The notes under the pieces are model-generated. The model saw nothing but the letters and a program-made list of their open reading frames with translations. It searched no databases and was not told where the DNA came from. The translations under genes and the position numbers were made by a program. This document shows, one piece after another, positions 17,739-51,042 of a stretch of DNA of 64,000 nucleotides (position 1 is the first letter of the stretch; each line of letters opens with the position of its first letter). This DNA comes from an uncultured bacterium (GTDB lineage Bacteria > Cyanobacteriota > Vampirovibrionia > Gastranaerophilales > Gastranaerophilaceae), in NCBI GenBank assembly GCA_949297715.1, contig CASFTJ010000004.1, positions 1-64,000 on the forward strand, given 5' to 3'.

Positions 17739-20723
17739 CTACTTTTTAACTTCAATCGGAATTTTGTTAAGATGGCAGAATGTTTTAAGAACAGCTTTTG
17801 CTTTTTGAATGTCCTGATGTACGCAATTGTTTCTTGTCGTTTTAATAATTTCTGAGGCTTTTTCGTACATTTTGGCTGCTGCTGCAAGGTAATCTTTTTG
17901 ACGGCTTGATTTTATTAAGCCTAATTCTTGGAAATATCTTCCGTATTGCAAATAAAGTCTTGATAAAAGATCATTTAAACCGTACTGGCGGGCTGTTATA
18001 ATTGCATTTTCAAGATGAATTTTGGTGCTTTCAAAATCCGATAATGCTAAAGTTGCTTTTGCCATAACCGATTGAAGCAGGCAGGCAAAGAAATGGTTAT
18101 TAATTTTAGGGTTTTGTGCAACTTCAAGAGCTTGGGATGCTATATCTAAAGCTTGCTGAGGCCCTTCTGTTATTATTGTGGCATCTGCTATTAAATACCA
18201 AGTTAAAAGTGCGCCGAGTGCCATTTTTTCTTTCGAAAAATACGCAATCTGGTCATTATAAATTTCCATTGCCTGACTGGTTTGGTCATTGTGTCTGAAT
18301 ATTATACCAAGCATGGTCTTTAGCATGTTTTTTGTAAAGTTATCGCCGTTGTTGTTTGCGAAAGTTACAATCTGGAATAAATCCTCCTGCAAGCCGTTAT
18401 ATCTTTTGCGGAAGAAATTGTTTATTATGTTAATAAAATTCCATCTTGTAACGCATTCGTTATCCATTGATTTTGACTGGTATTCTTTTTGAATTTCTTC
18501 AAGATTTTTTTCGGACTCAGGAATGTCACCCTTCATAGTGTTTGCAAATGCAAGTGCTAACTGGCTTTTGCATATAAGATTTTCATCTTCAATGCGATTT
18601 CTTTCCAAAACATCAAATAGTATTGTCAAAATTTCAAATGAGCGGTTGTTGCCTTGTATAATAAGCGCATTTGCCAGTACCAGATAAGTTTTTATCCAGG
18701 TTTCAAAAATTATATCCATCGGAATTGTCGGATGGGGTTCATTTTTGCTTAAAAAGTCATCAAATGCAGGCATTATGTCGTTGTCTATAAGGTTAATTAT
18801 TTGCCCGCAGTTACCAATATTTAATAGCGCATTAAGTTTTGTGGATCTTACAAGTGCAAGCTCAAGTTTGTCATCTGGATTCATTTTTGCTAATACTGCA
18901 TCAGTACATTCGACTTCTCCAAAATAATTACCTGTTTTGCGGCAGCAGCTTGACATATATCCGAGAAGTTCTATTTCTCTCGGGCTGTCTCCCATATTCT
19001 TGGCATTTGAAATCGCATCAGGAAGATAATCCATTGCTTCTTTCGGATTGAAGTCAGCAAGAAGTTTTCCTAGTCTTTCACAAATGTTATATCTGATTTT
19101 TAAAGTCTCAGTGTCATCAAGTTCGTTAATTAGAGCAAGACACTGTTTTTGTGAAATTGCATAAAGGTTTGTGTCGCCTATGAATGACGCAAGTCTTGTA
19201 TTCTTTGTCCATATATCCAGCGCAAGTTTGGGATGTTTAAGATTCTGCGCAATTATTCCGAGGATTGCCGTCGAATTCATTGTGAAATTTGTTATCGCAA
19301 GAAATATTTTCTTATTTATTTCCTCATAACGGTCATCCGTTTTAACCGCTTTTACTATCGTTTCCCATAAATAAAGACTCTTAAACCGATAGTAAATATC
19401 GTTCATCGGTTCTATGAAATTCCTCTGCTGAAGATAGGCAATTACATCACTAAAGTCTTCATCTCTGTATTGGAAAATTTGTTTAATAAGATTAAGGTTA
19501 ATTTTGTCGCCTATCATTGCGCTGCCCATTAAAGTCATATAGGCTCTTAAATTCCTATCTTTTAATATCGCAAGACGCCTTGAAACAACATCTGTATATG
19601 TTTGAGGGATTACAAATGCATTATGACGGATTTTTGACGTTTCTTCTTTAAATAGTTCAAGTGTTTGCTCTAAATATGCCGGATTTCCGTTGCTTTGTAA
19701 AAAGATTTTTCTTTTTGTCGTGTCGTCAATTTTTGGAAAATCTTCTTCTGCTTCTTTTACATCTGCAAATGCAAACATCTGTTTCGCATCCAATGGCGCA
19801 AGATATACGTCTGTGAATATCCCGTCAGCTTTGTTTTCCGGAAAATAGAAAAAGCCTTTTGAAGGTTTATGTTCGTTATAAACTATTAAAAGTTTTAAAT
19901 CTCCGAATACATTATCTTTTTTTATAAAATTGTTTAAAAATTCATACGAATATCCGTCTATGTATTCAAAATTGTTTACGACTATTACAAAACGGCTGTA
20001 TTGAATTATTTTGTCAAATATTTTGGCTAAAAGTTCAAAATATCTTGTTTTGCCCGCAAGCATGGTTTCAAATGTTCCGATTTTGGTTGGGTATAAAAAG
20101 TTCAACAAATCCCCGACTTCCTGCGATTCAAGATATGGAAATTCGTTTTGAAAATATTTTGTTGCATCTTTTCTGAATTTGTTGTTGTTTATACAAAAAT
20201 TCGGAAGATTAAATAAATTTAAAATTATATCCTGCAAAAGCCCGCCCGGTGTAAGCTGCGTTATCGGAGTGCAGTTGCCGTAAAACCAAATGTAATTTTT
20301 TTCTCTTAATTCGTTTATTATATGGGAGATGACAAGAGTCTTCCCTGTGCCTTTGGGACCGCTTAATGAAAATATTTTTTTATCTTCTGATAATATGTTT
20401 TTGACAAGAATGTTTTTAGCACTCTGTTGGGCTACAAGGTTCTGGGTTGCAAATTCAAATAAGTTCGGTTGTTTGTTTTCTGTTTCTTCATCTTTGGGGG
20501 CAAACGGATATTTACATTTTCTGCAGTTTAGTGCATTTGGAAAATTTACACTCTTGCATTGCGGACAAATTTTTAAAATTTCTTGACCGCAATTTTTGCA
20601 AACTAAATCAAAAATGGTATTTACTGTGTTGCAATTTTTACAAACTAATCCGGTTCTTGTTTTACAATAAGGGCACTTTAGCGCATTGTCCGGAATGGTT
20701 TTTTTGCAAATTGGACATTTCAT
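17739..20723 (-). CDS. Zinc-ribbon / P-loop NTPase / TPR signalling protein
   Basis: 994 residues in three parts. Residues 1-70 hold six CxxC pairs (3/6, 17/20, 28/31, 42/45, 53/56, 67/70), i.e. three tandem zinc ribbons. Residues about 90-450 form a STAND/AAA-like NTPase with Walker A GPKGTGKT (122-129) and a Walker B-like hydrophobic strand (FVIVVNNFEYID). The rest, to about 970, is helical and TPR-like (NTMKGDIPESEKNLEEI, ATLALSDFESTKIHLENAI). The closest general architecture is that of STAND regulators and ATPases linked to adenylate cyclase or kinases, but no output domain is present. It starts 15 bases after the sigma-like gene, so it is probably cotranscribed. Confidence 0.75.
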   Translation of the reverse strand: MKCPICKKTIPDNALKCPYCKTRTGLVCKNCNTVNTIFDLVCKNCGQEILKICPQCKSVNFPNALNCRKCKYPFAPKDEETENKQPNLFEFATQNLVAQQSAKNILVKNILSEDKKIFSLSGPKGTGKTLVISHIINELREKNYIWFYGNCTPITQLTPGGLLQDIILNLFNLPNFCINNNKFRKDATKYFQNEFPYLESQEVGDLLNFLYPTKIGTFETMLAGKTRYFELLAKIFDKIIQYSRFVIVVNNFEYIDGYSYEFLNNFIKKDNVFGDLKLLIVYNEHKPSKGFFYFPENKADGIFTDVYLAPLDAKQMFAFADVKEAEEDFPKIDDTTKRKIFLQSNGNPAYLEQTLELFKEETSKIRHNAFVIPQTYTDVVSRRLAILKDRNLRAYMTLMGSAMIGDKINLNLIKQIFQYRDEDFSDVIAYLQQRNFIEPMNDIYYRFKSLYLWETIVKAVKTDDRYEEINKKIFLAITNFTMNSTAILGIIAQNLKHPKLALDIWTKNTRLASFIGDTNLYAISQKQCLALINELDDTETLKIRYNICERLGKLLADFNPKEAMDYLPDAISNAKNMGDSPREIELLGYMSSCCRKTGNYFGEVECTDAVLAKMNPDDKLELALVRSTKLNALLNIGNCGQIINLIDNDIMPAFDDFLSKNEPHPTIPMDIIFETWIKTYLVLANALIIQGNNRSFEILTILFDVLERNRIEDENLICKSQLALAFANTMKGDIPESEKNLEEIQKEYQSKSMDNECVTRWNFINIINNFFRKRYNGLQEDLFQIVTFANNNGDNFTKNMLKTMLGIIFRHNDQTSQAMEIYNDQIAYFSKEKMALGALLTWYLIADATIITEGPQQALDIASQALEVAQNPKINNHFFACLLQSVMAKATLALSDFESTKIHLENAIITARQYGLNDLLSRLYLQYGRYFQELGLIKSSRQKDYLAAAAKMYEKASEIIKTTRNNCVHQDIQKAKAVLKTFCHLNKIPIEVKK

Positions 20724-20738
20724 TCTGTTAAATCCTGA

Positions 20739-21302
20739 TTAGTTAAACGCTTGTTTAACCTTTTCCATTAATCTGAACAAACGTTTAGAGATTTCCGATT
20801 GTGAAAGATTCAAAATTTTTGCAATCTCTTTTTGTGTCATACCATTATCATATCGCAACTTAAAGATTTGTAAATAGTTTTTGTCAGGTTCTTCTTTATC
20901 TATTTTTTCCAATGAGTTAATTACGTGCTGCAAAATCTCTTTTCTTAAAAGTTCATCCTCAGGCGTTGTGCTTAAATCTGCAGGCTCATATACAATTTTT
21001 GCATTTGCATAATTGCTGTATGATTCTTGTGCATCAAGAGAAACTTCTCCGGTCGGAATAAAACCTTCTCTGGTTCTGCGAAGTCTGCCAGAATCTTTTA
21101 ATACATTAAGAATCGAAGTCGTTGCAATTTTTTTCAGATATGCTTCTAATGTTGCATCTGAAGTTATCGTTCTTACAATGTTGACGGATCTTTTACAAGT
21201 TTCGTTGAAGAAATCATCGTACAAATCTTCATTGTTTACAAACTTTCGGTCAGTTTTTATTATGCGCTCTATTAAATCTATCTTATCCTGTGTGAATTCC
21301 AC
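20739..21302 (-). CDS. Sigma-70-family-like RNA polymerase sigma factor
   Basis: 187 residues. The N-terminal half (DLYDDFFNETCKRSVNIVRTI...LEAYLKKIATTSILNVLKDSGRLRRTR) resembles sigma region 2. A linker follows, and then a C-terminal region 4 helix-turn-helix (FKLRYDNGMTQKEIAKILNLSQSEISKRLFRLMEKVKQAF). This is the size and order of an ECF or SigB/F-like factor. No anti-sigma gene of a known family is beside it; the neighbours are a TonB-C membrane protein upstream and an NTPase downstream, either of which could control it. Confidence 0.75.
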   Translation of the reverse strand: MEFTQDKIDLIERIIKTDRKFVNNEDLYDDFFNETCKRSVNIVRTITSDATLEAYLKKIATTSILNVLKDSGRLRRTREGFIPTGEVSLDAQESYSNYANAKIVYEPADLSTTPEDELLRKEILQHVINSLEKIDKEEPDKNYLQIFKLRYDNGMTQKEIAKILNLSQSEISKRLFRLMEKVKQAFN

Positions 21303-21341
21303 TAATTACAATCCTTTACAACTTTCAGTATTATAACATAA

Positions 21342-24300
21342 TTACAAATTAATTATAAGCCCTAACTTGAAATTAGGCGTAGGAATCTCTCCTGGTGCGG
21401 GTTTCACTACTTTTAGAGTGTCTTTAACAGTTCGTAACACAATGTCATTTATCTGGGTTGAACCGCTGGATTTTGTTATTTGAGCATCTTGTACGGTACC
21501 GTCATTTTTTAGTTTTATTTCTACTTTAACCTGATTTGAGTATGCGTATTCTGTAGCAAGAAGCAAGTCGCTTGATAATGTCAAACGAATACTCTTTCCT
21601 GCTGTTTGTAAATATTTTTTAACTTTGTCACTGTAGGATAAATAATCCGGTACTTCCCAAGCTAAACTCCTTACAGTTACGTACGGAAGTGGTGTGTTTT
21701 TAGATGGTTGGGCGGGTGAGGTCGATGGTTTTGCCTTTGCTTGTTGTGCCTGCTGCGGTTTTGGTTTGGAAGGTTGGGCAGGTGCTGTGTCCGGAGTTTT
21801 TTGTGCCGACGTTGGTGTGTTTATATCAGGTGCGTTAGTCATTAAATTTGTGTTGTCACCTTCAGTTTGGTTTTCTGATGGGTTTGAAATGTTTGTCCCA
21901 TCTGATTCTATTGGATTTTGTGCAAGTATATCCGTTGAATTTTTGTTTTTTAACAAGAAAAATCCTGCACCTCCAACTATTGCTAATATTGCAACAACTG
22001 CTGCTGCAAGTATTGCTTGTTTTCCCTTTTCCTGTATCGTATTCCCAGAAGGTATTTCCTCCTGTGAATTATCTATTTCTGTTTCATAATCAAAATTATT
22101 TGAATTGTTGTCCATGTCATAATTTTGTGTATTAAAAAGTACTCCCAGTTTATCGTCTTTTTCGTTGGATGATTCTTCTTTTAGGGTTGAACTGTTCATT
22201 GATTGGGTTTCTGTGTTAGAAAATGTTTCTGCTGATCCAGTTGTGCTAAGAAGATCATCAATTTGTGAAATTAATTCGTCTGTTGAAAGATCAGTATTAT
22301 TTTTAGGTTCATTGAATTCTTCTACTCCGGCTATATCGTCGGTAACTGTTGATTTTTCAATCTCATCAGCATTAAGATTTAAATCGGTTATAGTATCTTC
22401 TGTTTGGATAGATTCAATAGTATCAGATTGTGCGGAAAGTGTTTCGGACTGCTTTTCCAATGCTGAAAAATCAGTAAGGTCTTCAGTTCCTGATTTTACT
22501 TCCGTTAGTAATTCTTGATTAGAGGTATTATTTTCAATTGATTGGTCTTCAATATTTAAAATGTCGGTTTCTAATTCTTCAGATAAAGGCTCAACAGGTG
22601 AGTCGTTTGCTGTAGTTAAATTTTCGTCTGCAAGCATTCTGTCAAGTTCAATATCTTCAGGTAAAATATCAGGCTGTTCTTCTTGTTTTGCATTTTGGAT
22701 AGGCTCATTTGTTTTTTCTATTTTATGAGTTTTTTCATCTTCCTGTATAAGATTGTTGAAATCTTCTAGTGGAGAAGTTTCATTTGATTGAATTGATTCT
22801 GATTTAGGTGATGGTGCTTCTGGAGATGGCGTTTCGTCCAAATCTTCTGATATTTCCAAAAGTGGTTCATCAAGTGATAGTTCTGTGTCATCAAATGATA
22901 ATTCCTGTAAGGGTTCTTCAAATAATAATTCAGGTTCTTCTGATAGGTTTTCTGAAGACTGTTTTAGGATATTTGTATCAGTATTTGGAACGGTATTGGT
23001 GTCTGTTAGTGGTGTATTCATAGAAGTTTCATCGGAAGAAGATGACAAACTTTCAAAATCTTCAAGTTTATTTTCTTGAAGTGTTAAATTATTTGATTCT
23101 GTATCAGCTTCTATTTCTCCTATGTCTATAGAAGTTTCATCGGAAGAAGATGACAAACTTTCAAAACCTTCAAGTTTATTTGCTGAAATCGTTTGATTAT
23201 CTATGTTTGTGAATTTTTGTTCAATTTCTGCTGAATTAGTTTCTGTAAGATTTGTGTTTGTTGTTATATCATCAAAATCCATTGTTTCCGAAGGTGTCGT
23301 ATCTGTTTTTATAATTTTATTATCTTGTAATGATTCGGAGATATTTTCAAGATCACTAAAATCTATAGTTTCATTTTTTGAAATTTCTGTTTTAACTGTG
23401 TTTGATGATGTTTCTGCTGTTTGTGTTTCAAAAGGCATTATCTCATCAAAGTCTAATGTTTCTGGGGTATTTTTTTGTTCAATTATTCCTTTGGTTGTTC
23501 TTGGTTCTTCTGTGTTATATTCATCTGTTTGTGAAAGGTTATTAAAATCCATTGTAAAAGATTCTAAATCTTCGTTTGTTAAAGTTTCAATATCTTCATT
23601 TTGTATAATTTCCTGAGGATTGGAATCTTCAATATTTTCAGACTGAAGATCTTCAGTTGATGTTTCTTCAATTGAATTTTTTATAATTGATGATTTTGAT
23701 TTGGTTGTTTCTTTATTCATAATTTCATCAACAGTCATATCCGAAAGATCTGAAAAATCATCCAGTTCGTTTAGCATATCATCTACTGACGATGAAGAAG
23801 CTTCGGACAAATTAAATTCTGGAGTTAAGTCCGGAATATTTCTTTCTAAATTATTAAAACCGTTAATTATAGCATTTTCGTTTGGAAGATCCTGAGTGTT
23901 GGCACTTCCTGCAAAGTCAAGTTCTTCAAGAGCTTCTGCGGTTGCTGCAGCAGCTATTTCTATTGAAGGATAACCGCTATCGGGTTCTGATTTTTTCACT
24001 TCAGGTGAATGTTCTGCTCTATAGGAAAGAGTTTCAAAATTTTCAAATTCTATAAAACGATCTCTTAATTTTGCCGATTTAACAAGATTTTTGAGAAGTT
24101 CTTTTTTGTCAACTTCGGTTATGTCATGGTCTATCATTGATAGAATAAGCATATCTGAAGTATCAATTTCGTCATTGGAGAGGGACTGATCTGTATTTCC
24201 TTTGAAATTTTTGATATATTCTTTAAGGTTTGAGGCAGGAGTTAATTTTTCTTTTTCAATAAAATAATATTCATCATTTTGATTCTTTTTGTTGATGAGC

Positions 24301-24692
24301 TTAGGTTCAAAAAATCCTAAAAATTTTACATATTTTTTATCATTTGACATTAAAAGGACAAGATATATGTCCGGTAAAATTTCGTATTTGAAATGGCTTT
24401 TGGGAATAAATATAAAATTTTCATTGAAGACAATACGAACTTCTAAATGGATGTTTTTAAGCATGATGTCTGAAATATCCAATTCTTCAAGAACTTTCTT
24501 TATGGAGTGGATATTGTAAGTGTTTGTTGTATCAACATTTTCACTTGCTAAGAATTTCTTTATTAACTGCGCGCCTAATGTATTATAATAAGCTCGGTTT
24601 TGAATATCTTCTTTAGCAAAATGCCTTGCATTTATACCTGCTTCGTTTTTGTCATTTTCTTCAATGTAAATTAGTGTTTCCTGTCCTGCCAT
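21342..24692 (-). CDS. Giant acidic single-pass membrane protein with TonB-like C-terminal domain
   Basis: 1116 residues. Residues 1-165 form a folded cytosolic domain, tentatively like cyanobacterial DUF1822. Residues about 200-885 are acidic and low in complexity, rich in Ser, Thr, Glu and Asp with repeated phrases such as FESLSSSSDETS and TMDF/TLDFDEI. A transmembrane helix follows (about 890-912, AILAAAVVAILAIVGGAGFFLL), then a Pro/Ala/Gln/Lys-rich periplasmic linker, and a TonB-type C-terminal domain (about 1005-1116: VKVEIKLKNDGTVQDAQITKSSGSTQINDIVLRTVKDTLK). It could link an envelope component to cytoplasmic signalling. First gene of a probable operon with the sigma-like and NTPase genes. 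Confidence 0.75.
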   Translation of the reverse strand: MAGQETLIYIEENDKNEAGINARHFAKEDIQNRAYYNTLGAQLIKKFLASENVDTTNTYNIHSIKKVLEELDISDIMLKNIHLEVRIVFNENFIFIPKSHFKYEILPDIYLVLLMSNDKKYVKFLGFFEPKLINKKNQNDEYYFIEKEKLTPASNLKEYIKNFKGNTDQSLSNDEIDTSDMLILSMIDHDITEVDKKELLKNLVKSAKLRDRFIEFENFETLSYRAEHSPEVKKSEPDSGYPSIEIAAAATAEALEELDFAGSANTQDLPNENAIINGFNNLERNIPDLTPEFNLSEASSSSVDDMLNELDDFSDLSDMTVDEIMNKETTKSKSSIIKNSIEETSTEDLQSENIEDSNPQEIIQNEDIETLTNEDLESFTMDFNNLSQTDEYNTEEPRTTKGIIEQKNTPETLDFDEIMPFETQTAETSSNTVKTEISKNETIDFSDLENISESLQDNKIIKTDTTPSETMDFDDITTNTNLTETNSAEIEQKFTNIDNQTISANKLEGFESLSSSSDETSIDIGEIEADTESNNLTLQENKLEDFESLSSSSDETSMNTPLTDTNTVPNTDTNILKQSSENLSEEPELLFEEPLQELSFDDTELSLDEPLLEISEDLDETPSPEAPSPKSESIQSNETSPLEDFNNLIQEDEKTHKIEKTNEPIQNAKQEEQPDILPEDIELDRMLADENLTTANDSPVEPLSEELETDILNIEDQSIENNTSNQELLTEVKSGTEDLTDFSALEKQSETLSAQSDTIESIQTEDTITDLNLNADEIEKSTVTDDIAGVEEFNEPKNNTDLSTDELISQIDDLLSTTGSAETFSNTETQSMNSSTLKEESSNEKDDKLGVLFNTQNYDMDNNSNNFDYETEIDNSQEEIPSGNTIQEKGKQAILAAAVVAILAIVGGAGFFLLKNKNSTDILAQNPIESDGTNISNPSENQTEGDNTNLMTNAPDINTPTSAQKTPDTAPAQPSKPKPQQAQQAKAKPSTSPAQPSKNTPLPYVTVRSLAWEVPDYLSYSDKVKKYLQTAGKSIRLTLSSDLLLATEYAYSNQVKVEIKLKNDGTVQDAQITKSSGSTQINDIVLRTVKDTLKVVKPAPGEIPTPNFKLGLIINL
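23020..23180 (-). repeat. Direct repeat inside the giant membrane protein gene
   Basis: A 53-base segment at 23020-23072 recurs at 23128-23180 with one mismatch, 108 bases (36 codons) apart. It encodes the repeated KLE-[D/G]-FESLSSSSDETS phrase. This points to recent in-frame duplication in the disordered region. Confidence 0.8.
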
Positions 24693-24879
24693 TATCCTAA
24701 TTTCCTCCCTCTTGATATATAAGATGACACGGGAATTGAAAATATTCCATTTTTTCTGTAAACTTTTGTAACAAATATTGAAAAAATAATTTTTTTAGGA
24801 CAAAATTAATCTTGTTCAGGTTTTATTTTAGTGTTGATAGAAATAAAGCAAGTGTATATATGTATAAGGAGGTTTTCTC

Positions 24880-25314
24880 ATGATAAGTGCTGTTTCAAGT
24901 GTTAGTTTCCGTGGTGAGGCTGGTGCTCAAAAAGATTTAAATTCTTTAATTAATGATCCGGGTAAGTTCTCATCTGCGGCACCCGCTCAGACAACTGCAC
25001 AACAGCAGCCAAAAGCTGATGAAGCGGTTTTTTCTACTAAAGATGAAAAAGGGAAAAATAATACAGCAAAAATTATTGCGGGTGTAGTTGGTGCACTTGC
25101 TCTTGTTTGGATTGGTTTAGGTTATGCTGTCGGACATAAAGGTTCACAGTGGACTAAAATCGAAGCTCCGGAAGGTATTACTCAAAAATGCAAAAACTTC
25201 TTCTATGCTATCGGTGAATCTGCTGTTAAAACTTACGACAATACGCTTGGCAAATGGTTCGGCAAAAAAGCGGGTGACGCTGCGGAAGCTGCTGCTGATA
25301 CAACAAATAAATAA
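24880..25314 (+). CDS. Small single-pass membrane protein with VSFRGE N-terminus
   Basis: 144 residues with a textbook AAGGAGG Shine-Dalgarno. The N-terminus MISAVSSVSFRGEAG is followed by an Ala/Gln-rich disordered region, a transmembrane helix (about 69-87, IIAGVVGALALVWIGLGYAVG) and an amphipathic C-terminal helix region. Function unknown. The F-[R/K/x]-G motif near the N-terminus recalls the gene at 41656 and may mark a lineage-specific group. Confidence 0.65.
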   Translation: MISAVSSVSFRGEAGAQKDLNSLINDPGKFSSAAPAQTTAQQQPKADEAVFSTKDEKGKNNTAKIIAGVVGALALVWIGLGYAVGHKGSQWTKIEAPEGITQKCKNFFYAIGESAVKTYDNTLGKWFGKKAGDAAEAAADTTNK

Positions 25315-26514: not shown

Positions 26515-27297
26515 TTAAAAAATGTTCGCATAAGTTAGAAAATAATTTGAAATTACATCCAACAGCATCGGCAAAATCCATACCATAATCGCCGCCCCAA
26601 AAACAGGTTTAAATAGGAAGCTTAACTGAAACACGTTAACCTGTGGTGCTGTTTTTGAAATTACACCAAGAATTATGTCTTGCCCAAGAGTTGCGAGAAG
26701 AACGGGTGAAGCAATTTGAAGTCCCATAAAAAGAACATTTGAACTCATTTTGATTAGATAATTCATATTCACAAGCTCTTTTAAAGGTAAACTTGTTGCA
26801 AAAAGCGGAAATATCTCAAAGCTTCTCAAAAACGCCCTCACAAGCCAATAAACTCCTCCGATGTGCATAAAAATTAATACACCCAAAAGTGACATAACTC
26901 TTGTTAAAATAGAAACCTGACTTGAAGTTGTCGGATCAAGAACCATAGCTGATGAAAGTCCCATCTGCATATTAATCATATCGGCGCCTGCGTCAACCGC
27001 AAGCAAAATTAACTGCGCAAGATAACCTATCATTGCACCTACTGCAAAGTTTAAAAGAATTGAAAGTATAAAAGAATCTGTTGTTCCCGCTAATGTATCC
27101 GGTCTTAAAAAAGGTCCGATTATAAATGTGAAAAGAAGTGCAAGACAAATTTTTACCATTCCCGGAACTTCTTTTTTGTTAAAAATCGGGGCAAAACGGA
27201 AAAATCCAAGCAATCTTGCAAAAATATATATCCCTGTTGCTAATGCCGCATTCAGGTGAGGAAACATTTTCATTAATTCGACATAAATTGTTTCCAT
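26515..27297 (-). CDS. fliR: Flagellar export apparatus protein FliR
   Basis: 260 residues with the FliR/SctT pattern of about six transmembrane helices and the conserved N-terminal ARLLGFFRFAPIF and ..MVKICLALLFTFIIGPFL segments, followed by a DAGADMINMQMGLSSAMVLDP segment. FliR joins FliP and FliQ in the export gate. Last gene of the minus-strand flagellar cluster, 7 bases after fliQ. flhB does not follow. Confidence 0.9.
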   Translation of the reverse strand: METIYVELMKMFPHLNAALATGIYIFARLLGFFRFAPIFNKKEVPGMVKICLALLFTFIIGPFLRPDTLAGTTDSFILSILLNFAVGAMIGYLAQLILLAVDAGADMINMQMGLSSAMVLDPTTSSQVSILTRVMSLLGVLIFMHIGGVYWLVRAFLRSFEIFPLFATSLPLKELVNMNYLIKMSSNVLFMGLQIASPVLLATLGQDIILGVISKTAPQVNVFQLSFLFKPVFGAAIMVWILPMLLDVISNYFLTYANIF

Positions 27298-27304
27298 TTA
27301 AAAA

Positions 27305-27796
27305 TTATCTCCCGAGAATTGTTGTCGTTTCAGTAAAGTCAGGCTTCGGATTTGGCATCATATTGGCAGGCGAATCCTTTAGGCGCTCTTGATTGTTGAT
27401 AAAAGGAATTTTGCCCGGATGACGCATAATGTAATCAATATTTGTGCTGTCTTTAAATCTGTCCTGCATTTCACCTTTGAAAGGCGATGTGTATTTATAA
27501 TAATCACTGGAAAGGGCATAATTGTCGTTTTTGGTAACTCCGTTAAAGGCAAGCGCCATGCCTTCGTAAAAAAGATTTGTTAGCAATCTGATAAACCCGA
27601 ATCCGCCTATTATAATAATCAGAAATACTCCTAAAATTTTAGGTGCGGCTGCAATTGTCTGTTCCTGAACCTGTGTAACGGCTTGTAAAATACCTACAAC
27701 AAGACCTATTCCCGCCGCAACAAGTACGCAGGGCATTGAAATCGCAAGCATTGTTATAAATCCTTTTGACAAATATTCAGCTAAAACTTCTATCAT
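27305..27796 (-). CDS. fliQ: Flagellar export protein FliQ with long C-terminal extension
   Basis: ATG 27796 is chosen for the AAAGGA just upstream (163 residues). Residues 1-88 match FliQ: two helices, SMPCVLVAAGIGLVVGILQAVTQVQEQTIAAAPKILGVFLIIIIGG, and a GFIRLLTNLFYEG end. FliQ is normally about 89 residues. Here about 75 polar residues follow (KYTSPFKGEMQDRFKDSTNIDYIMRHPGKIPF..), which have no match I recognise. FliQ sits at the inner membrane with FliP and FliR. Confidence 0.85.
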   Translation of the reverse strand: MIEVLAEYLSKGFITMLAISMPCVLVAAGIGLVVGILQAVTQVQEQTIAAAPKILGVFLIIIIGGFGFIRLLTNLFYEGMALAFNGVTKNDNYALSSDYYKYTSPFKGEMQDRFKDSTNIDYIMRHPGKIPFINNQERLKDSPANMMPNPKPDFTETTTILGR

Positions 27797-27815
27797 ATTA
27801 TTTCCTTTAAAATTT

Positions 27816-28457
27816 CTAGTTGTAACTTGTGACAAGCCCTTGAACAATTAACGCCCAGCCGTCTACCGCAATGAATATAAGAAGCTTGAACGGAAGCGAA
27901 ATAATCGTCGGTGATAACATAAACATACCTAATGCAAGAAGTATGTTTGCAACTACAAGGTCTAATACTATAAACGGTACAAATATAATGAACCCGATTT
28001 CAAAAGCTGTCTTTAATTCGCTTATGATATATGCGGGTGCCACTTGCCAAATGGTTATTTCTTCAGGTGTTTTTGGGGGAGTTTTTTGAGAAAGTTCTAC
28101 AAAAAATGCCAGGTCGCTTTCTCGTGTTTGTTTCATCATAAACTCTTTTAAAGGTTTTGAACCTTCATTTACTGCTTCAATTATGTTGTGATTTTGTTGG
28201 TATGGTACATTTCCCATATCGTACATCTTTTGAAAAGTTGAGCCCATTGTGAAAAAGGTTAATATAATTGAAAGTCCGATTATAACGATTGACGGAGGTA
28301 CCTGTTGGGTTCCCATTGCGGTTTTCAGCATTGAAAATACCACGACAAATCTTAAAAAACTTGTCATACAGCAAAATACAAACGGTAATAGTGAAAATAA
28401 TGTCATCACTATCAGCATTTGTATTACGGGATTTATATCTTTTATTACGGAATCCAT
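27816..28457 (-). CDS. fliP: Flagellar export protein FliP
   Basis: 213 residues with the FliP/SctR signatures: TSFLRFVVVFSMLKTAMGTQQVPPSIVIIGLSIILTFFTMGS, then RESDLAFFVE, then PAYIISELKTAFEIGFIIFVPFIVLDLVVANILLALGMFMLSP. No long N-terminal signal peptide. It forms the core of the export gate. The start follows the fliO gene by 30 bases. Confidence 0.95.
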   Translation of the reverse strand: MDSVIKDINPVIQMLIVMTLFSLLPFVFCCMTSFLRFVVVFSMLKTAMGTQQVPPSIVIIGLSIILTFFTMGSTFQKMYDMGNVPYQQNHNIIEAVNEGSKPLKEFMMKQTRESDLAFFVELSQKTPPKTPEEITIWQVAPAYIISELKTAFEIGFIIFVPFIVLDLVVANILLALGMFMLSPTIISLPFKLLIFIAVDGWALIVQGLVTSYN

Positions 28458-28487
28458 TTATTATATACCTTCAGCTTGTTGTTACTT

Positions 28488-29000
28488 TTACTTTATTTTG
28501 TTTACCATACTTTTCAGAACATTGTTTGGCTTTTTATTGTTTTTCGGAAATGCTTTAATCTCCGGTAAATTATCAATTCCCGATAAAGAATTATCGGTTA
28601 TTGTTTCGGGTATGTGCTGTTGTTTTGGCGCAGCCTGATTAATATTAGTTACTTTTCTTTCAACGTTGGACGGTCTGTAAACAGTGTTTGCCGCTGCTAT
28701 AAGTTCTCTGTCAAAATTTGATGAAAAATTGCTATCTTGAGTATTAGTAGTGTCTTCCAGTTTTGATATAAGAGAAGTTTTGTCAGCATCTGAGGCTATC
28801 AGAAATCTTTCTTTTCCTGCTCTTATTACATAAAGCATTTTTCTTGGCGCAAGTGCAAGTGTATCTTCAATATTTAAGAAATTGGAGTTTCTCATACCGA
28901 AATTCCCGCTTGAGAATTTTTTGTATACAAACAATGCGAAAAATATAAGTCCGCACATTGCCATTGTGTATACTCCGAAATTTAAAATGTAACTTCCCAT
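28488..29000 (-). CDS. fliO: FliO-like flagellar biosynthesis protein
   Basis: 170 residues: an N-terminal transmembrane helix (about 8-27), then the FliO-type strand region (LNIEDTLALAPRKMLYVIRAGKERFLIASDADKTSLISKL) and a long polar C-terminal tail. FliO is weakly conserved and is assigned by size, the LAPRK..VIRAG..FLIAS pattern and its position just upstream of fliP. A GAGGA ribosome site lies before ATG. FliO is flagellar-specific, which argues against a non-flagellar type III system here. Confidence 0.8.
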   Translation of the reverse strand: MGSYILNFGVYTMAMCGLIFFALFVYKKFSSGNFGMRNSNFLNIEDTLALAPRKMLYVIRAGKERFLIASDADKTSLISKLEDTTNTQDSNFSSNFDRELIAAANTVYRPSNVERKVTNINQAAPKQQHIPETITDNSLSGIDNLPEIKAFPKNNKKPNNVLKSMVNKIK

Positions 29001-29056
29001 AATCTATCCTCTACCTTGCTAAATTGTTTTTTAAGTACCTTTTAGTGAAATTGAAA

Positions 29057-30274
29057 TTATATATCTTCATCTTCAAGTTCAAAATCACTGTAGTCAAATT
29101 CTTCTTCTCCTCCGGCTTGCGGTTCCGGTGCAGGCATGGGTTCTGCCGGAGTTTCAGGTTGAGGTGCCTGCTGTATTTGAGAAGGCTGCTGGTGTAGTGG
29201 TGAGGCTTGCTGAGCATTTTGCATATCTTCAACTTCCTGCTGGCCTTTTTCTACTATGTCAGAAATTTTGACGCCGTAACGATCGTTTATTATTACAAGT
29301 TCACCGTGCCCGATAACTTTGTTTTCGACTCTTAAGGTTACTTTATTGTCGTAAAGTGCTGCAATATCTACCACAAGCCCTTCTTCTATTTTCTTTAAAT
29401 TGCCGAGAGTTATCTTTACAGGATCAAATTCTGCGTACATATCGACTTCGATACTGTCCCATAAAGTATTTGTATTTTCGGTATTTTCGTCCATTTTATA
29501 TCCTCCGTCCCCGTCAAGCGGATGTTCAAGTCCCATATTCGGGTTTATGTTAAAGTCTTTTTCGTAATCTTTTAATATGAATCTCATCATATCAAGCCGG
29601 CTGTTTTCAAGAAGTATAATGTCTTCAGGAGCAAGCTCTTTCATTTCTTTTACCGTAAATCTTGTCGAACCGATTTGAATTTTAGCTTTTATAGGGCATT
29701 GGTAAAAGTCGGAATATTCAAATTTGTCTTCTGTTGAAATTACTTTATTTGCTTCCAGTCGTACTGATGGAATTGATATGATGAATTTGCCGGCTTCTCC
29801 GTCCTCTTTGTTTTTAACGATAAAAGTCAGATGAATCATATCAAAATTTGTACGTTTAATGTTGACAACAGGGGTTGGGGTTAGGAATTTAGCCATTATT
29901 CTAAACATGTAATCATTAAATGCTGTTAAAACTTCGCCTTCCAAGTCGGTCATTCTGTTTATGTTGAAGGCTCGATTGCCTCTGCCAAGGGCTTTTTCAA
30001 GCAGCATGCCCACTGTTTTTGAGGAAATCCTAAAGAACATATCATAAAGTTTGTCTATTCTGATTTTGGTTACAAAATAGGGTTCTTTCGTCATTAAAAG
30101 GTTAATATTTTTACTTACCGCAACAAGTTCAAATCTGAATCCAGGCAGGAAAAATCCGTCGCTCGACTTTTGTGCTGCGATTGGAAAAACTTTTTTAAAC
30201 CAGTCGTATTCTGCATATAAATTGTCGCTGACCGGTATTTTTGTATGCTCCAGAGCTTGTAAGATATTTTCCAT
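29057..30274 (-). CDS. FliN/FliM-like switch protein with two SpoA-type domains
   Basis: 405 residues. A middle domain with a first SpoA-like part (about 195-235, IKAKIQIGSTRFTVKEMKELAPEDIILLEN) is followed by a clear C-terminal SpoA domain (about 270-345: VDMYAEFDPVKITLGNLKKIEEGLVVDIAALYDNKVTLRVENKVIGHGELVIINDRYGVKISDI) and a Pro/Gln-rich acidic tail. FliM (CheC-like domain) and FliN (SpoA only) normally form the C-ring. This single protein looks like a SctQ/FliMN-type combination. It heads the fliN/M-fliO-fliP-fliQ-fliR cluster. Confidence 0.8.
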   Translation of the reverse strand: MENILQALEHTKIPVSDNLYAEYDWFKKVFPIAAQKSSDGFFLPGFRFELVAVSKNINLLMTKEPYFVTKIRIDKLYDMFFRISSKTVGMLLEKALGRGNRAFNINRMTDLEGEVLTAFNDYMFRIMAKFLTPTPVVNIKRTNFDMIHLTFIVKNKEDGEAGKFIISIPSVRLEANKVISTEDKFEYSDFYQCPIKAKIQIGSTRFTVKEMKELAPEDIILLENSRLDMMRFILKDYEKDFNINPNMGLEHPLDGDGGYKMDENTENTNTLWDSIEVDMYAEFDPVKITLGNLKKIEEGLVVDIAALYDNKVTLRVENKVIGHGELVIINDRYGVKISDIVEKGQQEVEDMQNAQQASPLHQQPSQIQQAPQPETPAEPMPAPEPQAGGEEEFDYSDFELEDEDI

Positions 30275-48260: not shown

Positions 48261-48650
48261 TTACACCTGAGAAACCGAAATGCTTGTGATACCTGAGTTT
48301 CTAGCACTGTCCATAAGTTTTACGACAGCGCCGTGAGTAGCTTCACCGTCGGATTCTATCATCATGCCGTCAGGAAAATTTGCTGCATTTTGCTTAATAT
48401 AATTTTCAAGTTCGTCGACGGGAATTTCTTGACCTTCAATATAATATTTATCCTCAGAAGTTACATTGACCGTCAAAATCTTCGTGTCCTGTTTAACCTG
48501 TTCTTCCGCGACATTTTCCGGTACTGTCAGGTTAAGCCCCTGTTGGTCAAGAAGTGGCGCTATTACCATCATTATAATCAACAGTACAAGAAAAATATCT
48601 GTTAAAGGTGTTATGTTTATTTCGTTAAATTCTCCGCGGTTACGGCTCAT
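48261..48650 (-). CDS. exbD: ExbD/TolR-family protein (second copy)
   Basis: 129 residues with the conserved start EINITPLTDIFLVLLIIMMVIAPLL, in which the Asp is the proton-path residue of ExbD/TolR. The periplasmic rest includes YIEGQEIPVDEL and SDGEATHGAVVKLMDSARNSGI. Last of the TonB cluster (409-residue TonB-like, exbB, exbD, exbD). The paired exbD genes follow one another by 2 bases, so both are probably expressed and may heterodimerise. Confidence 0.9.
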   Translation of the reverse strand: MSRNRGEFNEINITPLTDIFLVLLIIMMVIAPLLDQQGLNLTVPENVAEEQVKQDTKILTVNVTSEDKYYIEGQEIPVDELENYIKQNAANFPDGMMIESDGEATHGAVVKLMDSARNSGITSISVSQV

Positions 48651-48652
48651 TT

Positions 48653-49105
48653 TTAGACTCCTTGTTTATTTTCTTCTTTCAGCTCTTTTTGTTCTTTCTT
48701 ACTCAAAGGTTCGCCGGCAACGATAAGCTTTTTGTATTCTGCATCCTGTGCGGCGTTCATAACTTTCATAATCTCGGCACTTTTTACTTTTTCATCTGCT
48801 TTAACTACGACTTCAGGTTTTTCAATGGATTCTTTCAGGGCGATAAGTTCGTCGGTTAATTGTTCTTCTGTTATCGGAGTTCCGTTTAAGAACATTTGAC
48901 CGTCCCTTGTGATAGCGATTGTTGCATTTTTCTGCTCAATTGCAACCCCGCTGTTAATCTCAGGTACCGTTATCGCATTATCCATTGACTGAAATGTCGG
49001 TGCTACAACCATCATTATGATTAACAGTACAAGGAAAATGTCTGTTAAAGGTGTTATGTTTATTTCCGTAAAAAGTTTTTCTTTTTTGTTTGAACTGAAT
49101 GCCAT
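48653..49105 (-). CDS. exbD: ExbD/TolR-family protein (first copy)
   Basis: 150 residues with TEINITPLTDIFLVLLIIMMVVAPTF near the N-terminus and a periplasmic part (INGTPITEEQLTDELIALKESI.., VVKADEKVKSAEIMKVMNAAQDAEYKKLIVAG), then a Lys/Glu-rich C-terminal tail not seen in the second copy. Energises a TonB-type transporter with ExbB using the proton gradient. Confidence 0.9.
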   Translation of the reverse strand: MAFSSNKKEKLFTEINITPLTDIFLVLLIIMMVVAPTFQSMDNAITVPEINSGVAIEQKNATIAITRDGQMFLNGTPITEEQLTDELIALKESIEKPEVVVKADEKVKSAEIMKVMNAAQDAEYKKLIVAGEPLSKKEQKELKEENKQGV

Positions 49106-49122
49106 TTGAGTTTTCCTTTTGT

Positions 49123-49767
49123 TTACAACGAAACATTTGATGTTGTTTTGTTAGATTCTTCTTCTGAATCTACAAAGCTTAAGAATAACAATTTAATAAG
49201 CTGAAAATCGTCTTCGTAGCGTTTTACTATTGATTGGAAAGAGTTGTAGAAAACAACCGCAACAATAGCAACTCCAAGACCGAAAGCTGTCGCAATCAAG
49301 GCTGATCCGATACCCATCGCAACTGCTGCAGATTGGTTTCCTTGAGTTGCAAGATCCTGGAATGTATAAAGAATTCTTACAACAGTTCCGAACAACCCTA
49401 AAAACGGTGCAACACCACCGATTGTACCGAGAATTGTAAGGTGGCTTTCAAGTTTTCTTGTTGCAAGCGCTGCTGCAATATCAAATGATCTTGAAAAACC
49501 GTTCTTTTGTTCAGAAAAGATTCTGACTGCTTCTTCTGTAACTTCTCCGATTACGCCTCCGCAATTTTCAGCGATGCTTTGAGCTCCTTGAAGATTGTTT
49601 TTGGCGAGTTCTCTTTGAAGTTTTGGGATGAATAAAACAACATCTCTTTTGTTTGCTTTGTAAAACTGAAATCTGTTAAATACAACCGCTACGACCAGTA
49701 TTGAACAAACCAATATCGGTAAAAGTACCGGCCAGTCTAGTTGAATTGAGTGTAATAGTAGTTCCAT
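49123..49767 (-). CDS. exbB: ExbB/TolQ-family proton channel protein
   Basis: 214 residues of the MotA/TolQ/ExbB family: an N-terminal helix (LLPILVCSILVVAVVFNRFQFY), a cytoplasmic middle, and two C-terminal helices (LTILGTIGGVAPFLGLFGTVVRILYTFQDLA, AVAMGIGSALIATAFGLGVAIVAVVFYNSF). It drives TonB with the ExbD pair. A Ser/Asn/Thr-rich C-terminal end follows. Confidence 0.93.
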   Translation of the reverse strand: MELLLHSIQLDWPVLLPILVCSILVVAVVFNRFQFYKANKRDVVLFIPKLQRELAKNNLQGAQSIAENCGGVIGEVTEEAVRIFSEQKNGFSRSFDIAAALATRKLESHLTILGTIGGVAPFLGLFGTVVRILYTFQDLATQGNQSAAVAMGIGSALIATAFGLGVAIVAVVFYNSFQSIVKRYEDDFQLIKLLFLSFVDSEEESNKTTSNVSL

Positions 49768-49812
49768 TTTTGGTATCCTCTCCTTTATTTTTCTTCTAAT
49801 CTTTATTGCTTT

Positions 49813-51042
49813 TTATTGGTAACCTGCGGCACCAAATACGTTGTAGTCAAATGTGAATTGAATATCAATGCTTGCGCCTTTGTATTCTGCCGGAAGCGGT
49901 TTAAAGGGTGCTGTGAGTTTTACTGCATTTAAAGCCGCATCATCCGCACTTTTAAGTCCTGAAGATTTGTATACACTGCAGGAAAGAAGTCTTCCGTCTT
50001 TTGCAATTTTAAACAATAATACAACTCTTTTACTTTCGTTACCTTTTGGCGGATCCCAGTTCATTTTAATTCTTCTCTGGAGTTCTCTCATATAAGGGCC
50101 GAAGTCAGGTTCTCTTATTGTATCAATTCCGGGTGCGCCTTTAGGGTTTCCGGGGCCAGGATTACCTACACCGCCTGTTCCGCCGCCACCGCCTCGTGCA
50201 AGCTTTTGTCCTGATGAACTTCCGCCGCCTGTCGGGGCTAGGGATGGTGCAGGGGTGTAACTTCCGCTGCCGCTTCCGCTTATCGGGCCGCCTGAACCTC
50301 CGCCTTTATTTGAAGTTCCTGAACCGCTTATCGGGCCTGTTGCGTAAGTGCCTGTTTTTGTTCCGCCTGAAGGTACTGGAACTTGGAATGCACTGCTTGG
50401 TTTTGCAGTCGGTTTTGGTGTTAAAGGCGGTTTTATTGAAGGTTTAGCAGTTGGAGGAGCAGGCTTTGCAACTTCAGGTGCCTTTGTTGGTGCCGGAGGT
50501 TGCTTATTTACTTTTGGCTGTTCAGGTTTTGGCTGAACTGCCTGCTGAATTTGTTCTGCTATAGTCGGTTTTTTAACCGGTTGTTGTTTTGGTTGAGTTT
50601 GCGTTTTTTGAGGTGCAGGCTGCTTCGCTTTTGCCGGCGGTTGAGGTGCAGGTGATGGTTTTGGGGAGTCTGCAGGCGCCGGTGATGGCATTGAAACAGG
50701 TTTTGTCGGATCGTGATGTCCGCCTGCTCGTGAATTTATGTCTGAACGATATGGTGTGTTCTTGTTTATCGGAGTTCCTTCTTTCTCTACAAGAACAAAT
50801 TCTATATCCTTCATTTTGGGTTTCGGTCTGTCAAAAATACTCAGTTTGATTCCTAAAAGTAAAAGAATAAATGAAATAAGGTAAATTAACCCGACTACTG
50901 TGGGGTGAAGAATTGTTGAAATAACAATATCCTTTTTCAGATTATCCTCTTTACTCTTTTTGGCTGTTGCAGGAAGTGTAAAGCCGAGATTCTTCTGATT
51001 ATCTTCTTCTCTATCAACGGTATATTTTCCTATGATTGACAT
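49813..51042 (-). CDS. TonB-family protein
   Basis: 409 residues. A cytoplasmic N-terminus and transmembrane helix (about 47-68, PTVVGLIYLISFILLLLG) are followed by a Pro/Lys/Gln-rich spacer (PAPADSPKPSPAPQPPAKAKQP..), a Gly-rich stretch (GTSNKGGGSGGPISGSGSGS) and a C-terminal TonB/TolA-like domain (YMRELQRRIKMNWDPPKGNESKRVVLLFKIAKDGRLLSCSVYKSSGLKSADDAALNAVKL). It spans the periplasm to energise outer-membrane transport. A TolA reading is possible; no tolB or pal is adjacent. Confidence 0.85.
   Translation of the reverse strand: MSIIGKYTVDREEDNQKNLGFTLPATAKKSKEDNLKKDIVISTILHPTVVGLIYLISFILLLLGIKLSIFDRPKPKMKDIEFVLVEKEGTPINKNTPYRSDINSRAGGHHDPTKPVSMPSPAPADSPKPSPAPQPPAKAKQPAPQKTQTQPKQQPVKKPTIAEQIQQAVQPKPEQPKVNKQPPAPTKAPEVAKPAPPTAKPSIKPPLTPKPTAKPSSAFQVPVPSGGTKTGTYATGPISGSGTSNKGGGSGGPISGSGSGSYTPAPSLAPTGGGSSSGQKLARGGGGGTGGVGNPGPGNPKGAPGIDTIREPDFGPYMRELQRRIKMNWDPPKGNESKRVVLLFKIAKDGRLLSCSVYKSSGLKSADDAALNAVKLTAPFKPLPAEYKGASIDIQFTFDYNVFGAAGYQ

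Follow-up and report, generated by a model that had tools for sequence, protein, structure and literature searches.

A putative autoregulated ECF sigma factor/membrane anti-sigma module with DUF1822 and TonB-type domains in the Gastranaerophilales

The pairing of an extracytoplasmic function (ECF) sigma factor with a membrane anti-sigma factor is a classic arrangement, and SigW/RsiW of Bacillus subtilis and AlgU/MucA of Pseudomonas are among the described systems closest to the locus analyzed here, a group of three genes in a 64-kb stretch of DNA (positions 1 to 64,000 of contig CASFTJ010000004.1, hereafter the window) from an uncultured member of the Gastranaerophilales, whose genome (2.02 Mb, 99.6% complete) has a low GC content. 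All three genes are on the minus strand, separated by gaps of 39 and 15 nt: the first (21342-24692) encodes a membrane protein of 1116 aa composed of DUF1822, an anti-sigma domain, an acidic linker, a membrane segment and a TonB-C domain, the second (20739-21302) a sigma factor of 187 aa, and the third (17739-20723) a zinc-ribbon P-loop ATPase of 994 aa of the STAND type (signal transduction ATPases with numerous domains) with a tail resembling tetratricopeptide repeats (TPR). Their proximity and their general types had been described in the initial annotation, and coordinates and profile scores bear out both. As in SigW/RsiW and AlgU/MucA, the genes of an ECF sigma factor and of a protein with a predicted class I anti-sigma fold in its cytosolic part and one membrane helix lie together and follow a putative autoregulated promoter of the GGAA type. 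Unlike in those systems, DUF1822 precedes the anti-sigma domain, which is followed by an acidic linker of several hundred residues and a TonB-type periplasmic domain; moreover, the zinc ligands are lost in the genus, an ATPase gene is part of the operon and the anti-sigma gene comes first. We consider it likely that the trio is an autoregulated ECF sigma/membrane anti-sigma module that signals across the envelope via its periplasmic TonB-type domain and in which the ATPase probably acts as a co-regulator in the cytosol.

The other close point of comparison is provided by ECF sigma genes with DUF1822, which have been described near EACC2/caspase systems in multicellular bacteria (PMC8195603). 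In photosynthetic cyanobacteria the sigma gene was found directly beside the DUF1822 gene at 12 of the 15 best DUF1822 loci and at 17 of 18 sigma loci, and caspase genes were found near two such loci tested. The locus studied here is like these pairs in that the sigma gene stands beside the DUF1822 gene on the same strand, but the cyanobacterial pairs differ in the size of the sigma factor (about 390-450 aa), in their reversed gene order and in having caspase rather than STAND/TPR genes nearby; in addition, the DUF1822 protein of the loci examined is full-length (370 positions) and soluble, lacking both membrane and TonB-C regions. DUF1822 may be a general sigma-associated domain. The identification of the cyanobacterial DUF1822-linked sigma factor with SigJ was considered and dropped, SigJ being reported as apparently monocistronic and SigF-like (PMC6495340, PMC2758279). 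In the literature we found no report of a fusion of DUF1822, anti-sigma domain, membrane segment and TonB-C, nor of a zinc-ribbon STAND protein linked to such a fusion, and no paper on zf-HC2 + TonB anti-sigma factors or on sigma factors of the Gastranaerophilales. The earlier statement that no system of this composition has been described therefore holds for the fusion and the STAND link, but not for the neighborhoods of ECF sigma and DUF1822 genes (PMC8195603) or for the pairing of a sigma factor with a membrane anti-sigma factor.

By its profile matches, the 187-aa protein is an ECF sigma factor (sigma70 group 4). The sigma70-ECF model TIGR02937 covers residues 15-185 (74.6 bits vs. a cut-off of 42.9, E-value 7e-21), and the region 4 DNA-binding domain (residues 145-183; 20754-20870, minus strand) is recognized by Pfam Sigma70_r4 (E-value 8.5e-10, 38.4 bits vs. 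24.1). A NEDL...F..E motif is nearly invariant in the orthologues, and the sigma profile also matches SigW (8.7e-4). Separately, the whole genome (G000, 2 Mb) encodes thirteen sigma-70 proteins that score above the cut-off of the ECF model, two of them in unusually long open reading frames (ORFs; 528 and 759 aa, contig C8).

The assignment of the membrane protein comes from residues 173-228 (24009-24176, minus strand), for which zf-HC2 matches in orthologues, a profile match to RsiW and the predicted fold agree. In an alignment of 33 rows, 28 of them orthologues from the order and five DUF1822 proteins from cyanobacteria, other genera and families carry, directly after DUF1822, a segment like HDRTKELFLSYLDNEISNVDKEYLVRHIANCDECR; this pattern, Hx3Cx2C, is the hallmark of zinc anti-sigma domains. 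The segment is recognized by Pfam zf-HC2 in 11 rows, three of them above the cut-off, and the motif is intact in all 11 of these orthologues. In the genus of the window the zinc ligands have been replaced (H->I176, H->N202, C->S206, C->L209); this loss is compatible with membership in class I, as the zinc motif is absent from about 44% of class I anti-sigma domains (PMC7406223). The AlphaFold2 model places helices at residues 173-187, 193-205 and 207-227. Foldseek run with the whole model of residues 1-240 reported MucA (probability 0.87; 1.0 A over 51 columns), but with an E-value of 1.7, while the comparison of the isolated domain with known structures was headed by four matches of modest Z-score, to RsiW (Z 7.3, with 64 residues superposed at 2.1 A), MucA (7.2 and 6.8) and RslA (5.6), all of which are class I anti-sigma factors. 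The sequence profile of the domain, searched against the PDB, likewise gave RsiW as the best match (1.4e-4), and the sigma and anti-sigma profiles thus independently reach both partners of one solved complex, SigW/RsiW. Residues 173-228 are predicted to form a class I anti-sigma domain, a three-helix bundle of the RsiW/MucA/RslA fold, and the membrane protein is probably the anti-sigma factor of the neighboring sigma, to which it would bind. The initial annotation had seen no anti-sigma factor of a known family, which this domain contradicts, and had proposed either the cytosolic part of the membrane protein or the NTPase as the holder of the sigma factor; the former is well supported in silico, with residues 173-228 in place of 1-165, whereas the latter is unlikely, and the NTPase gene is unlinked in four families (see below).

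When upstream regions from the genus and three additional genera were aligned, an invariant block stood out 29 nt before the start codon of the anti-sigma gene, namely the putative ECF-type promoter GGAATATTTT-N9-TGTCATCT (24722-24748, minus strand), with the consensus GGAATAWWTT-N9-TGNNNTCT and the spacing of ECF promoters. An exact match occurs once per genome at the trio operon in all 14 genomes of the genus, and the sole extra exact match in these genomes (G002:C172) lies before another DUF1822 ORF that runs off its contig. Across 21 loci of the order (614 kb of strand) there are 10 exact matches, each of them immediately before the anti-sigma gene, whereas none occurred in resampled sequence. 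The promoter is also present upstream of orthologues in several families, and is absent at the f3 and f7 loci examined and at some others. Sites with one mismatch that we looked at fall mostly inside genes or lack a clear promoter position, and when the region was scanned in a simple way for sigma-70 promoters, the matches did not exceed chance. As the promoter is conserved at this very operon, autoregulation is implied, and we regard the conservation as strong evidence for this putative circuit. The second DUF1822/anti-sigma ORF mentioned above (L192:3537-4157), truncated by the end of the contig, has an intact zinc motif and the same promoter; although found in a genome assigned to the genus, it is possibly a contamination from another genus.

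The sigma profile has hits in 132 of the order's 146 genomes, which speaks against a chance observation; almost every genome of the order carries the locus, in a single copy. In 48 of 55 genomes the sigma gene lies next to the anti-sigma gene, mostly at a distance of 33-126 nt, and this linkage holds in families f2, f3 and f4; the synteny beyond the strain, which the initial annotation had set as a test, is thus found in several families. Sigma and ATPase genes are adjacent in 34 of the 55 genomes, comprising nearly all those of f1, plus f5 and f7. The wider linkage of the sigma/anti-sigma pair marks it as the core, to which the ATPase is more loosely attached. As three families nevertheless have the ATPase gene linked to the sigma gene, all three genes may have been together in an ancestor and have separated later. 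Beyond the order, in two genomes of f8, a DUF1822/anti-sigma-like gene directly follows a gene of faint sigma similarity, which at these outgroup loci (L191:3346-6085 and L193:2819-5546) encodes a 480-aa protein with helix-hairpin-helix repeats.

C-terminal to the anti-sigma domain, the membrane protein consists of an acidic, Ser/Thr-rich linker (residues 229-885; 22038-24008, minus strand), predicted to be cytosolic, a single membrane segment (about residues 894-914; 21951-22013, minus strand; hydropathy maximum 2.57) and a TonB_2 domain, predicted to be periplasmic (residues 1050-1102; 21387-21545, minus strand; E-value 2e-7, 31.4 bits vs. a cut-off of 22). The linker has 657 residues, of which 26% are D or E, with a net charge of -137, and its length in orthologues ranges from 65 to 868 residues. 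A single-sequence search of the TonB-C end against the PDB returned nothing useful.

From the computed domain identities, the predicted fold, the gene linkage and the conservation of the promoter, we infer the binding, the topology, the signal, the release step and the role of the ATPase as follows. The anti-sigma domain, of class I fold without zinc, would clamp the neighboring sigma factor (187 aa) and so keep it at the membrane, probably assisted by the DUF1822 domain in front of it, while the long acidic linker would join the clamp to the one membrane helix and the periplasmic TonB-type domain. The latter could sense the state of the envelope or cell wall, or contact with an outer-membrane partner, and the sensed change would free the sigma factor through proteolysis or a conformational change of the anti-sigma factor. 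The freed sigma factor would then transcribe its own operon from the GGAATA...TCT promoter, plus other targets. The co-transcribed zinc-ribbon STAND/TPR ATPase would most likely add a cytosolic, ATP-dependent input; its function as a cytosolic gate is plausible because of the co-transcription, which is the sole basis for this step. The core of the trans-envelope path proposed in the initial annotation, in which a periplasmic domain relays a signal to a held sigma factor, is thus well supported in silico.

Several observations weigh against this interpretation. The match of the sigma factor to Sigma70_r2 (13.9 bits) is below the Pfam cut-off of 24; the window's own copy of the anti-sigma domain, scanned alone, has no zf-HC2 match, its zinc ligands being lost; and Z-scores of 5.6-7.3 are modest for a small helical bundle. 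Four families (f2, f3, f4 and f6) have an ATPase gene that is not linked to the sigma gene, and in f6 the sigma gene is also separated from the anti-sigma gene. Finally, two genome-wide pattern searches revealed no convincing further promoter targets beyond the operon. The module resembles a known type of signalling device, of which it seems to be a widespread and so far undescribed variant. It suggests a testable function for DUF1822, namely the control of sigma factors, and it defines a transcription switch shared by nearly all members of an order of non-photosynthetic relatives of cyanobacteria, while the conserved promoter makes the circuit rebuildable and testable in E. coli.

The DUF1822 part itself (PF08852; residues 8-159; 24216-24671, minus strand) corresponds to the N-terminal half of the family (model positions 1-159 of 370; 40.1 bits vs. 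a Pfam cut-off of 25). It was missed by the Pfam scan of the full-length protein, was located through a search for PF08852 across the phylum, in which 80 of 117 sampled genomes contain the domain, and was detected when the N-terminus was scanned alone. The distribution of DUF1822 in this search also suggests that the close relatives of the genome make up an order within the phylum to which the photosynthetic cyanobacteria belong. The AlphaFold2 model of residues 1-240 has a mean predicted local distance difference test score (pLDDT) of 90. Compared with known structures, the DUF1822 half gives Z-scores of up to 7.1 (Hjc, SPARDA, DpnI), which, being below 8, are not decisive, but nearly all top matches have the PD-(D/E)XK fold. 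At the active-site position most members from the order have (D/E)xR in place of (D/E)xK, and the motif is absent in the cyanobacterial members. We regard the predicted resemblance of this half to PD-(D/E)XK nucleases as a lead. On a much more tentative note, and with some doubt on our own part, we speculate about a new mode of ECF control, in which DUF1822 would be a sigma-associated, repurposed PD-(D/E)XK fold, ancestral to the phylum and fused in the order to the clamp, the tether and the TonB-type domain, so that envelope mechanics or the state of the cell wall, gated by the STAND ATPase, would free a sigma factor that serves mainly its own operon.

The third protein of the trio contains DZR ribbons (1.9e-7), an AAA_16-like P-loop domain (4.6e-7) and a region of weak similarity to TPR_MalT (0.0018). 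The three zinc ribbons comprise six CxxC knuckles (residues 3-70; 20514-20717, minus strand), whose twelve cysteines are invariant in 18 orthologues, as are G125, G127 and K128 of the Walker A motif GPKGTGKT (residues 122-129; 20337-20360, minus strand). The AAA_16 match scores 30.9 bits in the window's protein (cut-off 32.6) and 38.4-44.1 bits, above the cut-off, in two orthologues. Judged by these features, namely an AAA_16-type P-loop, Walker A and superstructure-forming repeats (TPR), the protein fits a STAND NTPase. It is like bacterial STAND NTPases with TPR tails (AAA_16/TPR_MalT) in combining a P-loop domain with a TPR-like tail, and unlike them in its three N-terminal zinc ribbons and in its membership of a sigma operon in f1, f5 and f7. 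The f5 and f7 orthologues (L061:3908-7594 and L062:4173-7895) have an extra region between the ribbons and the P-loop, which by eye reads like a decayed nucleotide-cyclase domain and has no Pfam match. A paralogue of 1171 aa with DZR and Zn_ribbon matches is encoded in G000:C3 (L144:1637-5152, plus strand) between aminotransferase-like and glycogen synthase-like genes, and its relatives are present in nearly all genomes searched.

It is unlikely that this ATPase is itself the main switch, holding and releasing the sigma factor according to its ATP state, with the membrane protein acting only as the sensor. Its gene lies 12-44 nt from the sigma gene in most linked genomes, the linkage occurs in f1, f5 and f7, and the Walker A motif is invariant; however, the membrane protein already has the predicted class I anti-sigma fold, and in f2, f3 and f4 the sigma/anti-sigma linkage holds, yet the ATPase gene is unlinked there, as it is in f6.

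STAND proteins are common in defence and programmed-death systems, caspase genes stand beside two cyanobacterial pairs examined, and the core of sigma factor and DUF1822 is common to these pairs and the trio. A defence or programmed-death device like the ECF sigma/DUF1822/caspase neighborhoods of multicellular bacteria (PMC8195603) is nevertheless improbable, as the Pfam scan found no caspase, peptidase or other effector domain in the trio, PADLOC gave only weak, fragmentary matches, and the near-universal, single-copy occurrence of the locus in the order is unlike that of patchy defence islands. Similarly poor chances are given to a trans-envelope machine for GltJ-like motility or TolA-like envelope maintenance, with the sigma gene a mere neighbor. 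Besides the TonB-C domain, a weak match to the NCBIfam GltJ model around the membrane segment (1.2e-5, 24.6 bits) points in this direction, but the equivalog cut-off of that model is 450 bits, so that membership in GltJ was rejected, and the adjacency of the sigma gene over several families is explained by the anti-sigma fold.

The window also contains a complete TonB/Tol-type energising set in a row (48261-51042, minus strand), consisting of an ExbB-like gene (MotA_ExbB), two ExbD genes and a gene for a 409-aa TonB_2 protein. The whole genome was searched for the Plug domain of TonB-dependent receptors without a match, although the search was positive in E. coli, Caulobacter and Bacteroides, which served as controls; the presence of ExbB/ExbD and a separate TonB/TolA-like protein without such a receptor argues against nutrient-receptor signalling. 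Cell-surface signalling of the FecI/FecR type, to which the module is similar in its ECF sigma factor, its TonB-type domain and the proposed passage of an envelope signal through a one-pass anti-sigma factor, and which the ExbB/ExbD/TonB-like genes would suit, is accordingly very improbable and already largely refuted, as there is no FecR match in the trio, it is the anti-sigma factor that carries the TonB-like domain, and the missing Plug domain led us to reject membership in the FecI/FecR/FecA group.

Near the trio, the window encodes the flagellar genes fliR, fliQ, fliP and fliO and a FliM/FliN-like gene (26515-30274, minus strand). A functional tie between them and the trio was considered and rejected: of the other genera checked, no more than two have fli genes on the flanks of the trio, in a partly rearranged order, and the neighborhood is probably incidental. 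Between the two groups, divergent from the operon, lies a gene for a small protein starting with MISAVSSVSFRGE and containing one membrane segment (24880-25314, plus strand); small proteins similar to its product adjoin the second DUF1822 gene of G002:C172.

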